Shown: positions 177 through 51,427 of the stretch, one piece after another
Numbering within the stretch: position 1 is the stretch's first letter
How the letters are laid out: every line of letters starts with the position of its first letter
Assembly (NCBI GenBank): GCA_031272245.1
Contig: JAISUE010000054.1
Location: 1-51,427, forward strand
Direction: 5' to 3'
Source of the DNA: Bacteroidales bacterium
Lineage (GTDB): Bacteria > Bacteroidota > Bacteroidia > Bacteroidales > P3
Length of the DNA: 51,427 nucleotides
Notes under the pieces: generated by a model
Seen by the model: the letters and a program-made list of their open reading frames with translations, nothing else
The model's database searches: none
What the model was told of the DNA's origin: nothing
Position numbers and translations under genes: made by a program

Positions 177-1886
177 TTAATTTAATATCAGTTTGGTATC
201 TTTTGGATAGCGGACATTATAAACAAATTTTATTGTTTTGCTTTGTCCCGCCTCTATAGTTAAATCCCAAGTAAGTTTGCCGCTTTTTGTGTCATATTCA
301 GCCAAAGCCGTATCTATCGCCGTTACTTTGATGTCTTTATCTTGCGAAAGTGGAATCTGGTCTTGCAAATTAAGAGATACGGGATATTGATTGCCGTTGC
401 GGACGATTAAAGTAACTTCTACGTTATTTTCCAGCATGGAAGAAAGAATGTTAGTTTTCTCTGGTTTAGTGCGAACGATTTTGCGGTCGGTTGTAACTCT
501 CTTGTCTTGTCCTGTTTCTATGGAAAGAGTGTCATCTGTAAGATTTTGTGTTAAATATCCATTGTTTATATATCTATTATCAAGGTAAATACGGCAAGGA
601 GCGTCCATTAACTCAAGTTCTTCCCACGAAGCAATGCGAGCAGAAAGAAAAACTGTTTTGGAAAGTTTAGGTATGGCAAAATGTTTATAAGTTGCATTTT
701 TGGCTTTTGTTTCCAAAGGAATGGTTTTTTGCCGTTCGCCCGACAAAATAGTGTGCTTCGTACCAACTGTATATTCTTTTCCAAGCATTGTTGTTTCGGT
801 TTGAGTGAGTTGAGTGTAAGCTTGAACGGCGTTAATAGGAGATGCATCGGTTGAAACGGCTTTTTCTGCACTTGAAACAGCATTGTATAAATCCATACTT
901 TCTTCCTCTTTAACTCCTCTTGTCTGTTTCAAAACAATGGGTTGCAGACTGTGAAGATAATAAGGATAGAGTGTTCCGAGATTTTCGCCCGTCAAACTTT
1001 CGGTTGAAAACACCAAAGTTATGTCTTTCCAGTCTTCACCTGTGTTTTGTGTAACTTGAGCCTTGAGAACGAACTTTGCAGGGACTTTTGGGTCAGAAAA
1101 TTTCACGTCATAAATAGGTTGCCACACCACATTACCAACATGATAGTTGTAATAAAGAGTTATTTCCGTCGCTTTCTCGCTGTAAATGTTCATTGTTATG
1201 ATATATTGATTGCGAATCATGACGTTATCCTCTGTTTCATCTTGAATAATCAGGTTTAATTCCGTTTGAATTGCCGTTATTTGTTCCTGACGTTTTGCAA
1301 GAGTGCGGTTTTCCCTTTGAATACTCTCATTCAACTCCGTCATTTTCTGATGAAAATAGGTTATTGCGTCCTTAATTTTGCCAACTGTATCAACAGACTG
1401 CGAATTTGATATAGATTTCATGTTTTTTAATGCTGTTTGCTCGGTTTGCATCACTGCAATGAGGTTCTTTGTTGCTGTCTGTTGGTAATTTATTGCATCA
1501 AGGCTGTCTCTCAATAATTTTATTCGGCGTTTTGTGTCTTGAGAAAACTTGCTTTCATCCGCTTTATTTTGCACATATCGCAGCGAAGGTGTAAAATCCG
1601 TTACCATAACTTGCTCATCTGTTTGAAATTGTAGAGAATTGGCAATCATAAACTCCGAATTACCAACGAGAATTACCTCATTATTTCCCGTTTTGAGCGT
1701 TATCTTTGCCTCTTTTTCAATCAAAGCTTGATGAGGAAAAATTGTAATTTTTTCTATTTTGCCTGTTATTTCTTTTGATACATTGCTTGTTTTTGAATTA
1801 TTTTGCAATTGAGCAAAACTACTGACAGAAACAAATGAAAATATAGCAATGCCTGCCAATATTTTAACTTTAAATTTTGTATTCAT
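177..1886 (-). CDS. MuiA-family (mucoidy inhibitor A, DUF4139/DUF4140) exported protein
   Basis: 569-aa ORF with signal peptide; N-terminal 'VTIFPHQALIEKEAKITLKTGNNEVIL' and C-terminal DUF4139-like beta region ('YHVGNVVWQPIYDVKF', 'NTGEDWKDITLVFST'). Confidence 0.85.
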   Translation of the reverse strand: MNTKFKVKILAGIAIFSFVSVSSFAQLQNNSKTSNVSKEITGKIEKITIFPHQALIEKEAKITLKTGNNEVILVGNSEFMIANSLQFQTDEQVMVTDFTPSLRYVQNKADESKFSQDTKRRIKLLRDSLDAINYQQTATKNLIAVMQTEQTALKNMKSISNSQSVDTVGKIKDAITYFHQKMTELNESIQRENRTLAKRQEQITAIQTELNLIIQDETEDNVMIRNQYIITMNIYSEKATEITLYYNYHVGNVVWQPIYDVKFSDPKVPAKFVLKAQVTQNTGEDWKDITLVFSTESLTGENLGTLYPYYLHSLQPIVLKQTRGVKEEESMDLYNAVSSAEKAVSTDASPINAVQAYTQLTQTETTMLGKEYTVGTKHTILSGERQKTIPLETKAKNATYKHFAIPKLSKTVFLSARIASWEELELMDAPCRIYLDNRYINNGYLTQNLTDDTLSIETGQDKRVTTDRKIVRTKPEKTNILSSMLENNVEVTLIVRNGNQYPVSLNLQDQIPLSQDKDIKVTAIDTALAEYDTKSGKLTWDLTIEAGQSKTIKFVYNVRYPKDTKLILN

Positions 1887-1949
1887 TTATAATTATATAT
1901 TTGATATTAAAAACAAAATTAATATTTTTTCTAATATCATGATAAAAAA

Positions 1950-1979
1950 ACGGGGTGAAACATATAATATTCTCCCCGT
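1950..1979 (-). terminator. Rho-independent terminator reading on the minus strand
   Basis: Minus strand: ACGGGG-AGAATATTATATGTTTCA-CCCCGT followed by TTTTTTATC. Confidence 0.6.
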
Positions 1980-2320
1980 CAAGTAATGGTTTTAATAATA
2001 GTTGTTACTTATATTTAACATATAGGTAATATTTTAAGATTGTTTATGTTTGACTTTTACCCATAAAAAACATAATAAATCGTTACACGTAAAATCATTT
2101 GTTGTTAATTTATTAAATTTCTTTTTTCAATAATTTATTATTATTTAGAAGACTATAAACAATAAACCACTCCAAAGTTGTAAGTAAACTTACTTTTTCT
2201 TCATTGCAATGTGACAAAATGACAGATTAATTTAACAAATTTAATATGTTTTTTGCGACAAATAAAGAAACTTTTGGGTGGTTTGGAATAATGATACACT
2301 GCATAAGCAGTAAAATATAA

Positions 2321-2397
2321 ATCTAAAAAAGAGAGCGAGGCGGATTTTTGACATTATGAAGTTTGTTAATTTAATTATTATAAACAACCCCGCTCTT
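2321..2397 (-). terminator. Possible large-loop terminator/structured RNA element, minus strand
   Basis: Minus strand AGAGCGGGG (2396-2388) pairs with CCTCGCTCT (2340-2332), including one G-U pair, then CTTTTTTAG. The plus-strand version has an A/C mismatch, so pairing favours the minus transcript. Confidence 0.4.
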
Positions 2398-2681
2398 AAA
2401 TATTTTAAGTTTTTTTTCTTAAACTTAAATTTTTATTTTAGTTTTACGTTTTTTCAACGTATGAAACAGAACTTTTGCCATCTGTTTTTTAGTCATCTAT
2501 ATAAATATACTTAAAGATTTGGATACTATACAGGTAATATAGATTTTTAATCAATTAAGTCAAATATTAATTTATTTTTATTTCTGTTATACTTTTTTAT
2601 TTTTTCTTTTATAACTTATTTTACTGTTAATAACTTTAATTTTTATTCTTTTTATGTATACTTTGACTTAACTTTCAAATG

Positions 2682-2711
2682 CAAAAGTACAATAAATTTT
2701 TTATAAACAAT
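2682..2711 (-). promoter_or_regulatory. Bacteroidota-type promoter pointing left into an ORF-poor region
   Basis: Minus strand ATTG-N18-TACTTTTG-C, matching TTTG-N~19-TAnnTTTG. Confidence 0.55.
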
Positions 2712-3222
2712 ACTTTTTCAAAAAAAATTTTCTATTTTCCCTATAATAGACTGTATTTCAAAGAGAAAAAATTATTTTTTTCTCTTATTTCAGTTAAAAA
2801 GAATTACAGAAAATTTGATTTTCTAATTAAAAAATAAGATTATTATGTATGAAAAATTATGACTTTCTATTCTAAAAAGTTTATAAGAACTATGTTTTAA
2901 GTATTTTATTTTTGTCATTTATGTTATTTTCAACAATTATTTGATTTTTATAAAGATTTATCACAATATCATACTGTAAAATCAGCGATTTTTGTCAAAA
3001 AAATCAAAGTTTTATAACGTATATAATAACAATGTGTTATAACTTATTTTAATACTCATTTCAATGTAAATAACAAACATATATTGTTGCAGATATATTC
3101 TTTGTTATTATTTTAGAATAGGTGCAATAAGTAAGTATTTTTAGTATATAGGACGAAAAGTGTTGTTTTTTCTTTTTATTATTTTTGCAAATTCAAAAGA
3201 AATAAAATATATATTCTATATT

Positions 3223-4998
3223 ATGATAGATATTATGCTTCAAAATTCTATAGTTCAAGCCTTAAAAAATCTTTATGGTATTGATATTAACACAAAAAAT
3301 ATAATATTAACACCAACAAAAAAAGAATTTGAAGGTGATTTTACTTTAGTTGTTTTTCCTTTTGTGAAACAGGCTCGAAAAAAACCTGAGGTTTTAGCAA
3401 ATGGAATTGGGGAATATGTTGTAAACGATTGTACATATATTGCTGACTTTAATGTAATAAAAGGTTTTCTTAATTTTTCTATTGATCAGTCTTACTGGCT
3501 TAATTTTATAATAGAAAACTATAGTAATCCAAATTTTGGATATAAGCCGGCAAAAAACGAGAAACCTGTGGTTGTAGAATTCTCTTCTCCAAATACTAAT
3601 AAACCTTTACATCTTGGACATATTCGTAATAATTTACTTGGATGGTCTGTTTCCGAAATACTTAAAGCAAATGGTTATGCGGTGAAAAAAGTAAATTTAG
3701 TTAACGATAGAGGGATTCATATTTGTAAATCAATGATTGCATGGCAGAAATTCGGGCATGGAGAAACTCCACAATCAAGCAATATGAAAGGGGATCATTT
3801 AGTTGGGAAGTATTATGTTGTGTTTGATAAGGAATATAAGGCTGAAATAGAAGCTCTTAAATCAAAAGGAATGAGTGAGGATGAGGCAAAACAAAATGCA
3901 TCTTTAATGCTTCAGGCACAAGAAATGTTAAGAAAATGGGAAGCAAAAGATGAAGAAATTATGTCGTTATGGAAAAAAATGAATGGGTGGGTTTATGAAG
4001 GTTTTGAGGAAACATACAAAAATTTAGGGATAGATTTTGATAAAATATATTATGAAAGCAACACCTATCTTTTAGGTAAGGAACTTGTAAATGAGGGTTT
4101 GAAAAAGGGGGTGTTTTATCGTAGAGAAGATGGTTCCGTTTGGATAGATTTGACAGATGAAGGACTTGATGAAAAACTTCTTTTACGCAAAGACGGAACA
4201 TCGGTTTATATGACTCAAGATTTGGGAACAGCTTGTTTACGACATAAAGATTTTGATTCTGATAGACTTATTTATGTTGTTGGTAACGAACAAAACTATC
4301 ATTTTTCAGTATTAAAGTTAGTTTTACAGAAATTAGGTTTTGAATGGGCAGATAATCTTTATCATTTATCTTATGGAATGGTGGAATTGCCCACAGGAAA
4401 AATGAAATCACGTGAAGGAACTATTGTAGATGCTGACGATTTGATAGCATCTATGATAGAAATAGCAAAAGAACAAACTCAATCTCACGGAAAAACAGAC
4501 GAATTTACAGAAGAGGAGGCGAATAAACTATACAAACAATTAGCACTCGGAGCATTAAAATACTTTATTTTGAAAGTAGATCCTGTTAAAAATATGCTTT
4601 TTAATCCTCAAGAGTCAATAGATTTTAATGGTAATACGGGAACATTCATACAATATACATTTGCACGAATTAATTCTATATTGAAAAAAGCAACAATTAT
4701 CACAGATTGCGAAAAAGAGTTAATAACATTTAATATCAAGGAATTGGCTCTGATAAAAATTTTATATGCTTTTCCATCTGTGATTGAACAAGCCGCAACA
4801 AATTATTCTCCTGCGGTAATTGCAAATTATGCCTATGATTTAGCTAAAGTTTTTAATGCTTTTTACCAAGATACGCCTATATTAAAGGAGAATAATAAAA
4901 TAATGCGACTTATACGACTGCAATTAACAGAGTTTTCAGGAAGAACTATTAAAACAGCAATGCACCTTTTAGGAATAGATGTACCACAAAAGATGTAA
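3223..4998 (+). CDS. argS: Arginyl-tRNA synthetase
   Basis: Class I HIGH-type motif 'VVEFSSPNTNKPLHLGHIRNNLLG', 'VNDRGIHICKSM', C-terminal DALR-type domain. ORF track start 3160 (TTG) looks over-extended; ATG at 3223 or 3235 is more likely. Confidence 0.96.
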   Translation: MIDIMLQNSIVQALKNLYGIDINTKNIILTPTKKEFEGDFTLVVFPFVKQARKKPEVLANGIGEYVVNDCTYIADFNVIKGFLNFSIDQSYWLNFIIENYSNPNFGYKPAKNEKPVVVEFSSPNTNKPLHLGHIRNNLLGWSVSEILKANGYAVKKVNLVNDRGIHICKSMIAWQKFGHGETPQSSNMKGDHLVGKYYVVFDKEYKAEIEALKSKGMSEDEAKQNASLMLQAQEMLRKWEAKDEEIMSLWKKMNGWVYEGFEETYKNLGIDFDKIYYESNTYLLGKELVNEGLKKGVFYRREDGSVWIDLTDEGLDEKLLLRKDGTSVYMTQDLGTACLRHKDFDSDRLIYVVGNEQNYHFSVLKLVLQKLGFEWADNLYHLSYGMVELPTGKMKSREGTIVDADDLIASMIEIAKEQTQSHGKTDEFTEEEANKLYKQLALGALKYFILKVDPVKNMLFNPQESIDFNGNTGTFIQYTFARINSILKKATIITDCEKELITFNIKELALIKILYAFPSVIEQAATNYSPAVIANYAYDLAKVFNAFYQDTPILKENNKIMRLIRLQLTEFSGRTIKTAMHLLGIDVPQKM

Positions 4999-44017: not shown

Positions 44018-46183
44018 TTATTCCACTACAACTTTCTTCGTTATTGTGCCTTTGTCTGTCTGCACTCTTACGAAGTAATTGCCTTTTGCAAAAGCAGAAA
44101 CATCTATCGTTGTTTCTTTGCCTTGATAAACTACTTTGCCGAGCAAATCAACAACTTCTATGCTGTTTATCTTCTCGCCGCAAGTAATGTTTATTTCCTT
44201 ATGGGCTGGGTTTGGATAAATTGAAAGGTTTGCTGTTTCAATATTATTCAAAGCAACAGCATTTGGATTGTTGGTCGCTATATTGGAACGGATTGAAGTT
44301 AAGGACTTGCTTATGGTGCAAGGATTGTCAAGCATTATTTCCACTACATAATAAACATAGCCATTGGTTGGAGCAGAGAAATCACTGTAAGAAGTGTTGC
44401 TGCTCGGTATTGTATTTATCAACTCCATTGTATCCATACTTGTACCGCGATAGATATTGTATGTTTGATAAGACATTCCTTCGTAAGCATCCCAAATCAA
44501 ATTCCAACTGTTATTTTGACCTGCATTTATGGTAAGGTGCATCGTTTTGTGAGGCTCACTCAACACGGACTCATTGCCGCAGGTGTCAATAGCCGAAACC
44601 TTATACCTGTATGAGCGTATTTTTGCATTGCTCGCCGTATCTACCCAATGATTAAGGCTGTCATAAGGGATGGTTGCCGCAACATCGTATTGCCCGTTAA
44701 CATTGCCTTCCTTGTAAATGACATAAGAAACAACGTTACTAATGTTATCATTGGAATTGGTATCGCCTGTATAGTCATCCCGTTTCCATACTACTTCATT
44801 GTGATTGTTTTCATCCACGGACACCATACACAATTCCTGTGCAGGCGGGTCTATCATAGAAAGCGTTAGCCGCACTACGCTATCACAACCATTAACATTT
44901 TGCAGGGTAGCCTCATAAATACCTTCATTCACTAACGGATTGGTAAAGTTATCATCCGTATAACTTGCATTTCTGCAGATTGTTTTGGAATAGTTGGTAA
45001 CAGGTACTTGCGGATAAAATGACAGATGCAGGCAGATTACGCTGTCGCAACCGTCGGCATTAGTCAAATAAGCATAATACGTTCCGGGATTATGCAAAGG
45101 TGTAGTGAAATTAGCATCCGTATAAGTATCGGTCGGACGATTACATATTGACGCATTGTAAGAAGTAGTATCTACATTGCCATTTGAAATGAAGTTGGTA
45201 AAATTACTCCAGTATGGAGCAGAGTGATAAGCCGTGTATGTTCCGCAAGGGATAATAACAGGAATGTTTGTCGATACTTGATAAAATGTATTTGAAGAAA
45301 TAGTTGGTGGAGTTGTTGCATTGGAAACAATAGTATCTATTCCGCTGCAACCAAAAAAAGCACCACCGCCTATTGACGTAACCGAATTACCAATAGTTAC
45401 CGAAGTTAAACCGCTACAACCACAAAAAGTCTCAATCCCTATTGACGTAACGGAATTTGGAATTGTTACCGAAGTTAAGCCGCTGCAACCATAAAAAGCA
45501 GCAGTATCTATTGACGTAACAGAATTACCAATAGTTACCGATGTTAAACCGCTGCAACCCCAAAAAGCACTAGTTCCTATTGACATAACAGAATGACCAA
45601 TAGTTAATGATGTTAATCCGCTGCAATTAGAAAAAGCAGCAATTCCTATTGACGTAACAGAATTAGGAATGTTTAATGTTCCTGTTAAGCCACTGCAATC
45701 CCTAAAAGCAGATTCCCCTATTGACGTAACGGAATTACCAATAGTTGCCGATGTTAAGATGCTGCAATCCCTAAAAGCAGATTGTCCTATTGACGTAACG
45801 GAATTAGGAATAGTTACCGAGGTTAAGCCGCTGCAAGAATAAAAAGCAGATTGTCCTATTGACGTAACGGAATTAGGAATAGTTACTGATGTTAATCCGC
45901 TGCAAATAAAAAAAGCATAATTTCCTATTGACGTAACATAATAGGTTAAATTATTTGTCCCGCCTATTATGGAATCTAAAATTGTGTAACTTCCTGTGGG
46001 ATTAGTTGTAAAAGCATCAGTATTATAGTTACCACTACCAAGTTGTACCTCATTAGGCGAAAGACTTGTAATTTTGTAGGTAACTCCACTAACAGAAAAT
46101 GTGTTTCCGACACTTTGTCCGATTGCATTAAAGGTTGCAAATATTGCGATTGCAAGAACCGCTACCATCATAATTTTTCTCAT
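44018..46183 (-). CDS. BspA-like leucine-rich-repeat surface protein with T9SS sorting domain
   Basis: Signal 'MRKIMMVAVLAIAIFATFNAIGQ'; eight LRRs 'GLTSVTIPNSVTSIGxxAFxxCS'; C-terminal 'LSIYPNPAHKEINITCGEKINSIEVVDLLGKVVYQGK…GNYFVRVQTDKGTITKKVVVE'. The track's 50-aa N-terminal extension (to 46333) looks spurious. Confidence 0.92.
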   Translation of the reverse strand: MRKIMMVAVLAIAIFATFNAIGQSVGNTFSVSGVTYKITSLSPNEVQLGSGNYNTDAFTTNPTGSYTILDSIIGGTNNLTYYVTSIGNYAFFICSGLTSVTIPNSVTSIGQSAFYSCSGLTSVTIPNSVTSIGQSAFRDCSILTSATIGNSVTSIGESAFRDCSGLTGTLNIPNSVTSIGIAAFSNCSGLTSLTIGHSVMSIGTSAFWGCSGLTSVTIGNSVTSIDTAAFYGCSGLTSVTIPNSVTSIGIETFCGCSGLTSVTIGNSVTSIGGGAFFGCSGIDTIVSNATTPPTISSNTFYQVSTNIPVIIPCGTYTAYHSAPYWSNFTNFISNGNVDTTSYNASICNRPTDTYTDANFTTPLHNPGTYYAYLTNADGCDSVICLHLSFYPQVPVTNYSKTICRNASYTDDNFTNPLVNEGIYEATLQNVNGCDSVVRLTLSMIDPPAQELCMVSVDENNHNEVVWKRDDYTGDTNSNDNISNVVSYVIYKEGNVNGQYDVAATIPYDSLNHWVDTASNAKIRSYRYKVSAIDTCGNESVLSEPHKTMHLTINAGQNNSWNLIWDAYEGMSYQTYNIYRGTSMDTMELINTIPSSNTSYSDFSAPTNGYVYYVVEIMLDNPCTISKSLTSIRSNIATNNPNAVALNNIETANLSIYPNPAHKEINITCGEKINSIEVVDLLGKVVYQGKETTIDVSAFAKGNYFVRVQTDKGTITKKVVVE
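45344..45898 (-). repeat. Intragenic tandem repeat, about 69-bp unit, 8 copies (LRR units)
   Basis: Eight consecutive 23/24-aa units; recurring plus-strand 'TTGACGTAACGGAATTA..AATAGTTACCGATGTTAA.CCGCTGCAA'. Confidence 0.92.
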
Positions 46184-46386
46184 TTTTAATTGAATTTTTA
46201 AATTGTTTCTCCTACTCTGTGGCACTTCGGTTTTCCCGTTATTTTTCCTTGGTCTCTTCTCCATGGTTTGTGTTGCAATCTGTGCAGTCCGGTTGTCTCC
46301 GGTATTTCTTCTAAAAAAATCTTGATTTGCCATGTTTTATATTTTTTTATAATTCGTTAATGATAAATACAACTTAAAACTATTTG

Positions 46387-49254: not shown

Positions 49255-49330
49255 AAAAATGTAGAAACAGCAGCCTGCCGTTTTTTTCAGAGTGGAGAGT
49301 GTAGAGATTTTTTTTGCATTTTTGCCCCCT

Positions 49331-49479
49331 TGTCTGAACTTTGATTTTGAATGATTTGCGTGATTTTTGTAATTATTTAAAATCTTGTTAATCTTATAAA
49401 TCTTGCAAAAATCAGTGGTTCAGACAATTTTATAATCCTGCTACTCTTATAAATCTTATGAAAATCAGTGGTTCAGACA
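49331..49479. repeat. Second TGTCTGAAC/GTTCAGACA element plus an extra right-end copy
   Basis: TGTCTGAACTTTGATTTT (49331) … AAAATCAGTGGTTCAGACA (to 49426), then another TCTTATAAATCTTATGAAAATCAGTGGTTCAGACA (to 49479). Confidence 0.7.
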
Positions 49480-49580
49480 AAAACACTTAAAAAAAATTTT
49501 CTCCTTGCCAATCAACAAAATATAAAAATAATTGCAACTTTTTTTTCGCAAAATTAATTTTTTGTATCAAAAAAAAAGTG

Positions 49581-49588: not shown

Positions 49589-49659
49589 TAAAACATACAA
49601 AAAAAGTATAATCAGATCTTTAGTAGAAAAAAGATAGGACAGTAAAATTTGTACAGTTT

Positions 49660-49676
49660 CTCGAATATTTTTCGAG
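49660..49676. promoter_or_regulatory. Candidate operator: CTCGAA-TATTT-TTCGAG just upstream of AbiE -7 element
   Basis: Perfect 6-bp inverted repeat near the expected -33 region of the promoter at 49695. Confidence 0.4.
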
Positions 49677-49694
49677 TATATACAAAAAAATTAC

Positions 49695-49702
49695 TATATT
49701 TG
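49695..49702 (+). promoter_or_regulatory. -7 element (TATATTTG) for AbiE locus
   Basis: TATATTTGCAGCC 26 bp upstream of the ATG. Confidence 0.55.
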
Positions 49703-49727: not shown

Positions 49728-50360
49728 ATGCTTGATTTAGAGAGGTTTGGTAACATACCCTTTACCTACGCGGCTTTGGAAGAGATGCTGCACGGCTATC
49801 AGTCGCCCTACGACAAGGCGGCGGCGATGGTACGGTGTGGCGACATCGTCCGTTTGAGGAAGGGCTTGTATGTGGTTTCTCCAAAAATCAGCCGCAGGGA
49901 AATCTCGCGCGAACTTGTGGCGAACCATCTGTACCATCCGTCTTATGTTTCGCTCGAATCGGCGCTTGCGTATTACGGCTTGATACCCGAAAGGGTTTAC
50001 ACTGTGCGCTCGGTCTGTATGAAGTTGCGCAAGCAGTACGACACGCCGCTTGGACATTTTGAGTATATCAAAGTTCCTGAAAACTACTACCCGCTTGGCG
50101 TCCGTCAGGAAATTGTAAACAACGAGTACGCTTTTCTGATTGCCACGCCCGAAAAGGCGCTGTGCGACCTGATTCTTGCCACGCCCCGCCTAAGGCTGCA
50201 ATCCGTCCGTGCCATGCAAACCTATCTCGAAGAAGATTTGCGGCTCGATTTCTCGGCAGTAGAGCGGTGGGATACGGAAATTGTGCGGCAGTGCGCGGAG
50301 GCGGGAAAGAAGAAGGTGGAATTGGGGTTGTTGTTGAAATTAATAAATCAATATAATTAA
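49728..50360 (+). CDS. AbiEi-family antitoxin / transcriptional regulator (type IV TA)
   Basis: 'FTYAALEEMLHGYQSPYDKAAAMVRCGDIVRLRKGLYVVSP', 'ISRELVANHLYHPSYVSLESALAYYGLIPERVYTVRSV', 'IATPEKALCDLI'. Confidence 0.88.
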   Translation: MLDLERFGNIPFTYAALEEMLHGYQSPYDKAAAMVRCGDIVRLRKGLYVVSPKISRREISRELVANHLYHPSYVSLESALAYYGLIPERVYTVRSVCMKLRKQYDTPLGHFEYIKVPENYYPLGVRQEIVNNEYAFLIATPEKALCDLILATPRLRLQSVRAMQTYLEEDLRLDFSAVERWDTEIVRQCAEAGKKKVELGLLLKLINQYN

Positions 50361-50367
50361 AAATAAT

Positions 50368-51216
50368 ATGCAAAATAATAATTCAATAGAAAATAACATT
50401 AAAGAAACTGTATTTGCTTCATATCCAAGTAATAAAAAACAAACATATCACTTTGTTGAACAAAAACAAACTTTAAGGTTTAGAAAAAGATTATGGAACA
50501 AAATGAATGAACATAGACCTCGTACTGCACTGATTTTGTATATTTGTGGCATTATTATATTTTCTTATTTATATTATAGAACATATAATTCGAACAACAA
50601 TTCATTTGTTTTTGCAAAAGATATTTATCAAACAAAATTAGAAGATAAAAAACAACAAGACAGCATTAAAATTTATACATTGGAAAAAATTTCTATGCTA
50701 TATGATTCCATTGACTACAAAATTTCTGAAAACAAAATCACATTTGAAATGCCAGATTTGTTTTTTGCACGAACACAAGGTTACAAAGTGTTTAGATATC
50801 GCAATGACATTGGTCAATTTATTGATTTTGAAATTCATAATATTGCACCTCCACACAATATAGCATTTTGTGATAGTCCAAATGTTCTAAACCGTGATGT
50901 AGAATATAAAATTTTCTCATATCCATATGATTCTTCGGTAGTAATTAAAAATATGATAGCCATTGATAAAAAAAAGATAGATGCAGAAATTGATTCCTTA
51001 AATAGTAAACAAATGAACAATATAGTGGAATGGCACTATTTTGATTTCTTGTATTTTAGTATTATAACGCAAACGACCATTGGCTATGGAGATATTTTGC
51101 CCAATACAACTTATATAAGATTTTTGGTAAGTATTCAAGCATTATTGGGTATTTTTTGTACAGTTTTTTTTGTTATCGGGGCATTTGAAAAATGGAAGAA
51201 TAAGGACATTAAATAA
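50368..51216 (+). CDS. Two-TM potassium-channel-like protein with large TM1-to-pore domain
   Basis: TM1 'RTALILYICGIIIFSYLYY'; pore/filter 'FLYFSIITQTTIGYGDILP'; TM2 'FLVSIQALLGIFCTVFFVIGAF'. Confidence 0.88.
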   Translation: MQNNNSIENNIKETVFASYPSNKKQTYHFVEQKQTLRFRKRLWNKMNEHRPRTALILYICGIIIFSYLYYRTYNSNNNSFVFAKDIYQTKLEDKKQQDSIKIYTLEKISMLYDSIDYKISENKITFEMPDLFFARTQGYKVFRYRNDIGQFIDFEIHNIAPPHNIAFCDSPNVLNRDVEYKIFSYPYDSSVVIKNMIAIDKKKIDAEIDSLNSKQMNNIVEWHYFDFLYFSIITQTTIGYGDILPNTTYIRFLVSIQALLGIFCTVFFVIGAFEKWKNKDIK

Positions 51217-51242
51217 ATCATTCAAAATCAAATTTCAACATT

Positions 51243-51427
51243 ATGCTCAATCAAATTTTCCAAAATATGTTCTCCCGCTATTCAATGCGAACAAAAGACG
51301 AGCGCACAAATGCCACTCACGAGGTAATGCAGCAAATCGCGCTTGCAGGCTTGTACAAGGCGGGCTTTTTCGACCGTGCGGCGTTTTACGGCGGTACTTG
51401 CCTGCGCATTTTTCACGGTATGCAGCG
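51243..51427 (+). CDS. AbiEii-type nucleotidyltransferase toxin, truncated by window end
   Basis: MLNQIFQNMFSRYSMRTKDERTNATHEVMQQIALAGLYKAGFFDRAAFYGGTCLRIFHGMQ…; 'FYGGTCLRI' NTase GG(T/S) motif. Confidence 0.82.
   Translation, partial: MLNQIFQNMFSRYSMRTKDERTNATHEVMQQIALAGLYKAGFFDRAAFYGGTCLRIFHGMQ

Follow-up and report, generated by a model that had tools for sequence, protein, structure and literature searches.

Organisation of the abiE locus

The window, i.e., the whole stretch of 51,427 nucleotides analysed here, comprises one entire contig (G000:C55), at the end of which three genes follow one another on the forward strand. The first of these, abiEi (49728-50360), encodes a complete AbiEi-family antitoxin/regulator of 210 amino acids (PADLOC AbiEi, E=4.4e-73). 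It is followed, after a spacer of 7 bp (AAATAAT; 50361-50367), by a gene for a two-transmembrane (two-TM) K+ channel subunit of 282 amino acids (50368-51216; Pfam Ion_trans_2, E=1.2e-15) and, after a further spacer of 26 bp (51217-51242), by the 5' part of abiEii (51243-51427; PADLOC AbiEii, E=6e-23), which is broken off at the contig end. The open reading frames, strands and spacers were verified, and the antitoxin-channel-toxin order on one strand is as given in a preliminary description of the window. Neither the remainder of abiEii nor a duplicate of the contig end turned up in other contigs of the assembly, in a family search or in a DNA search of the same genome.

The window AbiEi shares 40-65% identity with AbiEi proteins of many Bacteroidales; it scores under the Pfam and NCBIfam cut-offs and gives a full-length PADLOC match. 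Distant AbiEi relatives are present on plasmids, while none were found among phages or viral contigs. Type IV toxin-antitoxin (TA) systems are those in which toxicity is neutralised without contact between toxin and antitoxin, and AbiEii nucleotidyltransferase (NTase) toxins are defined by motifs I-IV; the motif I region (FYGGT) lies within the 61 codons of abiEii that could be read. With regard to the two gene families, their order and their strand, the locus corresponds to the AbiE type IV TA system (PMC3985639), whose regulator AbiEi binds inverted repeats in its own promoter (PMC3985639). A candidate for such an operator lies upstream of abiEi in the window, in the form of the imperfect inverted repeat TTTGTA..CTCGAA...TTCGAG..TACAAA (49648-49686), as read from the sequence. 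Two Bacteroidota-type -7 boxes (TAnnTTTG) are found 5' of abiEi, including TATATTTG (49695-49702, forward strand), 25 bp 5' of the abiEi start. A box of this type is missing from the 168 bp that precede the channel gene, which speaks against the private channel promoter considered in the preliminary description. No promoter belonging to the inserted gene itself can be recognised in the window; its transcription therefore probably starts at the abiE promoter under AbiEi control, and co-transcription of the channel is likely judging from the sequence. An exact 12-mer, TTTGTACAGTTT, occurs both in the candidate operator (49648-49659) and at the 3' end of the channel gene (51155-51166), 76 bp before abiEii. 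The latter copy could constitute a second AbiEi site; this reading is weak, because three matches with at most one mismatch are present in the window, compared with 0.98 expected.

The channel assignment likewise withstood closer inspection. Hydropathy places TM1 at residues ~51-72 and TM2 at ~249-272, and the selectivity filter TIGYGD is located at residues 237-242 (51076-51093). Matches in the PDB are restricted to K+ channel pores, the nearest bacterial one being Lmo2059. The window channel has the pore helix, the TIGYGD filter and TM2 in common with prokaryotic two-TM K+ channels (Ion_trans_2; Lmo2059), from which it differs in an unusually long TM1-to-pore loop (~145 amino acids) and in a short C-terminal tail without a cytoplasmic regulatory or ligand domain. 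Whole-channel homologues were not found in genome contigs, viral contigs, phages or plasmids, and in same-family and class-wide genome searches the matches cover the pore/TM2 region only. The channel gave no match to a defence model, and an AF2 model calculated without an alignment was unusable (pLDDT 43).

A recurrent cargo site between abiEi and abiEii

The abiE operon of Streptococcus agalactiae is bicistronic, with an overlap of 4 nt (Dy et al. 2014, PMC3985639). That AbiEi and AbiEii genes are normally adjacent or overlapping, as previously stated for this locus, is borne out by the distinct loci compiled here, in which 85 of 90 cargo-free pairs overlap and the other five are separated by spacers of 3-32 bp. 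Among 29 same-family loci, both genes were on the stretch read in 25, all of which overlap (by 4-28 nt), and in 32 more loci from later searches (some of them repeats) no cargo and 30 overlaps were found; here, one locus (L212) shows a gap resulting from a stop inside abiEi and another (L226) an ambiguous arrangement. Because cargo-free pairs nearly always overlap, the 882 nt that part abiEi from abiEii in the window, including the channel gene, are a departure from the known bicistronic operon. Something has therefore been inserted at this junction without displacing the end of either abiE gene, in line with the earlier proposal that a channel gene had entered a TA operon. One cargo-free member of the cargo-bearing clade (L062, 5637-5668) carries a 32-bp spacer of almost pure A+T, which is possibly an emptied slot.

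Using the window AbiEi as a query against one genome per species, 57 loci were obtained, and other genes were found at this junction in the nearest of them; from this and other searches, 113 distinct AbiEi loci were compiled, of which 15, including the window, contain cargo. These 15 loci harbour 14 unrelated gene types at the abiEi/abiEii junction, one or two genes at a time and on the operon strand. Besides the K+ channel of the window, the cargoes comprise two related secreted proteins, next to an abiEii of which only the first codons are left (L063); a HipA-like protein together with a HIRAN protein, matching PADLOC PDC-M03A/B (L067); a PD-(D/E)XK GxxExxY protein (L068); a CFI-box protein of 487 amino acids (L069); a DUF6602 protein similar to NucC (L071); a WG-repeat protein (L072); HNH-like proteins (L075 and, as a weak match, L073); a member of the UDG superfamily (L077); a membrane protein of 87 amino acids (L085); an Mrr-like nuclease with a 267-amino-acid protein (L188); a DUF6994 protein (L189, and at 40% identity also L154/L191); and AbiH (L190). 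L068, in which abiEii is wholly missing, was assigned to the slot because its flanks match those of L071 and L072. In L069, L073 and L191, cargo ORFs extend into abiEi or abiEii. In one genome (G222), two abiE copies carry different cargo, namely AbiH and DUF6994; two or three abiE loci per genome, with cargo different or absent, are seen in G222 (L189, L190) and in G217 (L186-L188).

Among the 113 loci, no second genome with the antitoxin-channel-toxin order was found. The three-part defence or toxin module envisaged in the preliminary description, with ion flux as an extra effector, is hence not supported as a specific system, given also the 13 other unrelated cargo types in relatives and the restriction of the relatives of the channel to the pore; it is possible that, more loosely, accessory effectors are interchangeable within the slot and share their regulation by AbiEi.

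abiEii is broken or missing in six of the 13 cargo loci that could be judged (L063, L067, L068, L072, L073, L077); a working toxin is, therefore, not needed by the cargo. In four of these (L067, L072, L073, L077), abiEii is disrupted after ~23-37 codons, and next to it lies an IS200/REP-type transposase ORF, or what is left of one. A further locus (L192 ~1754-4480, genome G441) contains an IS66-like element with three ORFs between abiEi and an abiEii remnant. Around the insert of the window, nothing convincing in the way of a target-site duplication was found in the AT-rich DNA. A transposon origin of all cargo was considered and rejected as a general explanation, with inverted repeats surrounding the cargo only in L068, L077 and L085. 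Those in L077 (5620-6370; GCACGCAGATGACACAGATT / AATCTGTGTCATCTGCGTGC) and L068 (1465-1925) belong to another family than those in L085.

In a maximum-likelihood tree of AbiEi, cargo is confined to one half (15 of 54 rows, against none of 59 in the other; Fisher p=5e-6), although support for the branch that divides them is weak (69/91) and the position of the window within its half is ambiguous. Six changes of the label "cargo" are needed on this tree; since nearly all cargoes are mutually unrelated, there must have been at least as many acquisitions as cargo types. Pairs of close relatives indicate how cargo is probably exchanged. L071 and L072 are collinear, with ~98% identity, along the left flank and over ~500 bp from the start of abiEi, after which identity drops abruptly to 64-82% in the final ~140 bp of this gene. 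Their cargoes are unrelated, and in the right flank, a serine-acetyltransferase-like gene, identity returns to 96%; L068 carries a third cargo at the same chromosomal site with the same flanks. The abiEi genes of L067 and L073 are 93% identical, and in both loci a similar IS200-like insertion interrupts abiEii at the same position, and yet the cargoes differ, so that the cargo changed after loss of the toxin. Different cargoes are also found in L075 and L077 (abiEi 91% identical), and a cargo-free locus (L084) and a cargo locus (L071) have abiEi and abiEii in ~90% identity. The simplest inference from these sequence comparisons is that homologous recombination in the conserved flanking abiE genes swaps the cargo.

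The three genes of the window differ in their base composition. With GC3 values of 0.63 for abiEi and 0.59 for abiEii, compared with 0.20 for the channel and 0.23 ± 0.07 elsewhere in the window, the TA genes are indeed GC-richer than the channel, as had been noted by eye. The additional observation that the channel resembles its host is a coincidence, because cargo is equally AT-rich in GC-richer hosts: GC3 of the cargo is 0.17-0.31 in all 15 loci, with flanks ranging from 0.36 to 0.63, and it is lower than that of abiEi in 15 of 15 loci and than that of flanking genes in all 12 testable ones. The contrast thus reflects a common pool of AT-rich cargo and not a host gene placed in a foreign operon.

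Origin and retention of the channel gene

On this basis, we consider it probable (approximately 70%) that the abiEi/abiEii junction in one Bacteroidota AbiE lineage is an exchangeable slot for accessory genes, with the channel as one of its cargoes. The junction would take up foreign genes that are AT-rich and of widely differing kinds, and these would be transcribed from the AbiEi-controlled abiE promoter, as suggested by position, strand and spacing in the window; abiEi and abiEii would serve as arms for cargo replacement via homologous recombination, to which the identity breakpoint and the unlike cargoes point. The channel would then most likely be an accessory effector whose expression rises together with that of the toxin once AbiEi repression is relieved, e.g., upon phage infection, and which would alter or collapse the membrane potential. 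The more far-reaching proposal, according to which AbiE is a dedicated cargo platform, providing recombination arms and an autoregulated shared promoter, from which gut Bacteroidota swap single effectors (nucleases, AbiH, PDC-M03, a K+ channel) into and out of an operon under TA control, with the channel acting as a membrane-targeting anti-phage effector, is put forward only tentatively.

Several other readings have been weighed against the exchangeable slot. The channel might be an obligate third component of AbiE, either because AbiEi controls or blocks both the channel and AbiEii, or because nucleotidyl transfer by AbiEii gates the channel. The common strand, the tight spacing and the lack of a separate promoter box agree with this, as does the occurrence of NTase-plus-channel pairs elsewhere (Hailong); yet, among the loci compiled, the channel is found in the slot of this genome only and offers no cytoplasmic ligand domain, and, given 13 other cargo types and 90 cargo-free pairs, AbiE does not need a channel, which makes this reading very improbable. 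That a host channel gene entered, as a single event, a TA operon acquired by horizontal transfer, which is the first option of the preliminary description in its simplest form, would explain why GC3 of the channel equals that of the host whereas abiEi and abiEii are GC-richer. We regard it as unlikely, considering that the same contrast is seen in 15 of 15 cargo loci, including hosts with a flank GC3 of 0.5-0.6, that a paralogous channel donor was not found in the genome, and that the junction has been used repeatedly. The position of the locus at a contig end of a draft genome might raise the suspicion of an assembly artefact, in which unrelated sequence was joined; this is scarcely credible, with the gene ends intact on both sides and an operon-like geometry, and misassembly is rejected because the same architecture recurs in many independent assemblies.

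More weight is to be given to the view that the channel is a passenger, i.e., a selfish or neutral AT-rich gene with a function unrelated to phage, which is kept since loss of the flanks would remove the antitoxin. The functions of the cargoes are heterogeneous, some apparently lying outside defence, and AbiE can stabilise mobile DNA (PMC3985639). Several cargoes are, however, known or candidate defence genes, and addiction alone does not explain retention, since cargo is kept or swapped next to a broken abiEii (L067/L073, L072). A passenger is, all in all, a possible but not a favoured explanation.

Cargo function and relation to known systems

PADLOC models match the cargo in four of the 15 loci (PDC-M03, NucC/PD-DExK-like, AbiH and type IV REase-like), and nuclease or DNA-processing domains (Pfam or NCBIfam) are contained in four further ones. 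As controls, 34 genes located just downstream of cargo-free abiE were used; these are mostly housekeeping genes, with at least three matching PADLOC models. By PADLOC alone, enrichment of defence genes is not significant (4/15 cargo loci versus at least 3/34 neighbours, p=0.18); upon addition of the nuclease domain calls, p=0.001 is obtained for a grouping that is post hoc and was less fully applied to the controls. The WG-repeat protein, the secreted proteins, the CFI-box protein, DUF6994 and the 87-amino-acid membrane protein are cargoes without a link to defence. Defence is, thus, the leading but unproven theme of the cargo, and the channel is plausibly, not demonstrably, a defence effector.

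In Hailong, an NTase (HalB) and a membrane channel (HalA) are encoded together, as is the case in the window. By description, the abiE locus differs from Hailong in that AbiEii belongs to a TA pair, as a toxin with a separate antitoxin, and in that the cargo is interchangeable. Integron gene cassettes are promoterless single-gene cargo in a fixed slot and in this respect resemble the abiE junction; in contrast to integrons, an integrase and an attC site are not seen at the slot, and the pattern is that expected of homologous recombination between flanking genes. A further likeness is to "guilt-by-embedding" (Payne et al. 2024, as presented in PMC12255303 and PMC12988326), the established finding that defence genes may sit within the operons of other defence systems, as DarTG2 does between hsdS and hsdR. 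According to these papers, accessory and often defence genes lie inside another defence operon, as at the abiE junction, and the PDC-M03A/B match of the L067 cargo, belonging to the PDC candidate series, adds to the likeness. Compared with the cases presented there, the host is here a two-gene TA system, with the cargo at the antitoxin/toxin junction. A literature search returned no report of AbiE hosting embedded genes; with Payne et al. 2024 known via citing papers, priority is uncertain.

If the exchangeable slot is true, it explains the presence of a K+ channel inside a TA operon and provides a concrete case in which such an operon serves other genes as a platform for their expression and exchange. 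The abiEi/abiEii junction would then show where to look for unknown accessory and defence genes, any gene lying there being a candidate, with DUF6994, the CFI-box protein, the K+ channel and the 87-amino-acid membrane protein as the unannotated ones.

Two further features of the window may be mentioned. The reverse strand encodes, at 44018-46333, a large secreted protein of the BspA-like type, with leucine-rich repeats and, at its C-terminus, a sorting-like domain. Upstream of abiEi, at 49330-49480, lies a repeat element (TTGTCTGAAC ... GGTTCAGACAA), and similar repeat ends (TTGTCTGAACTATGATT / AATCATAGTTCAGACAA) bound the 87-amino-acid cargo in L085, which suggests that a mobile repeat of this type may help to bring in cargo.
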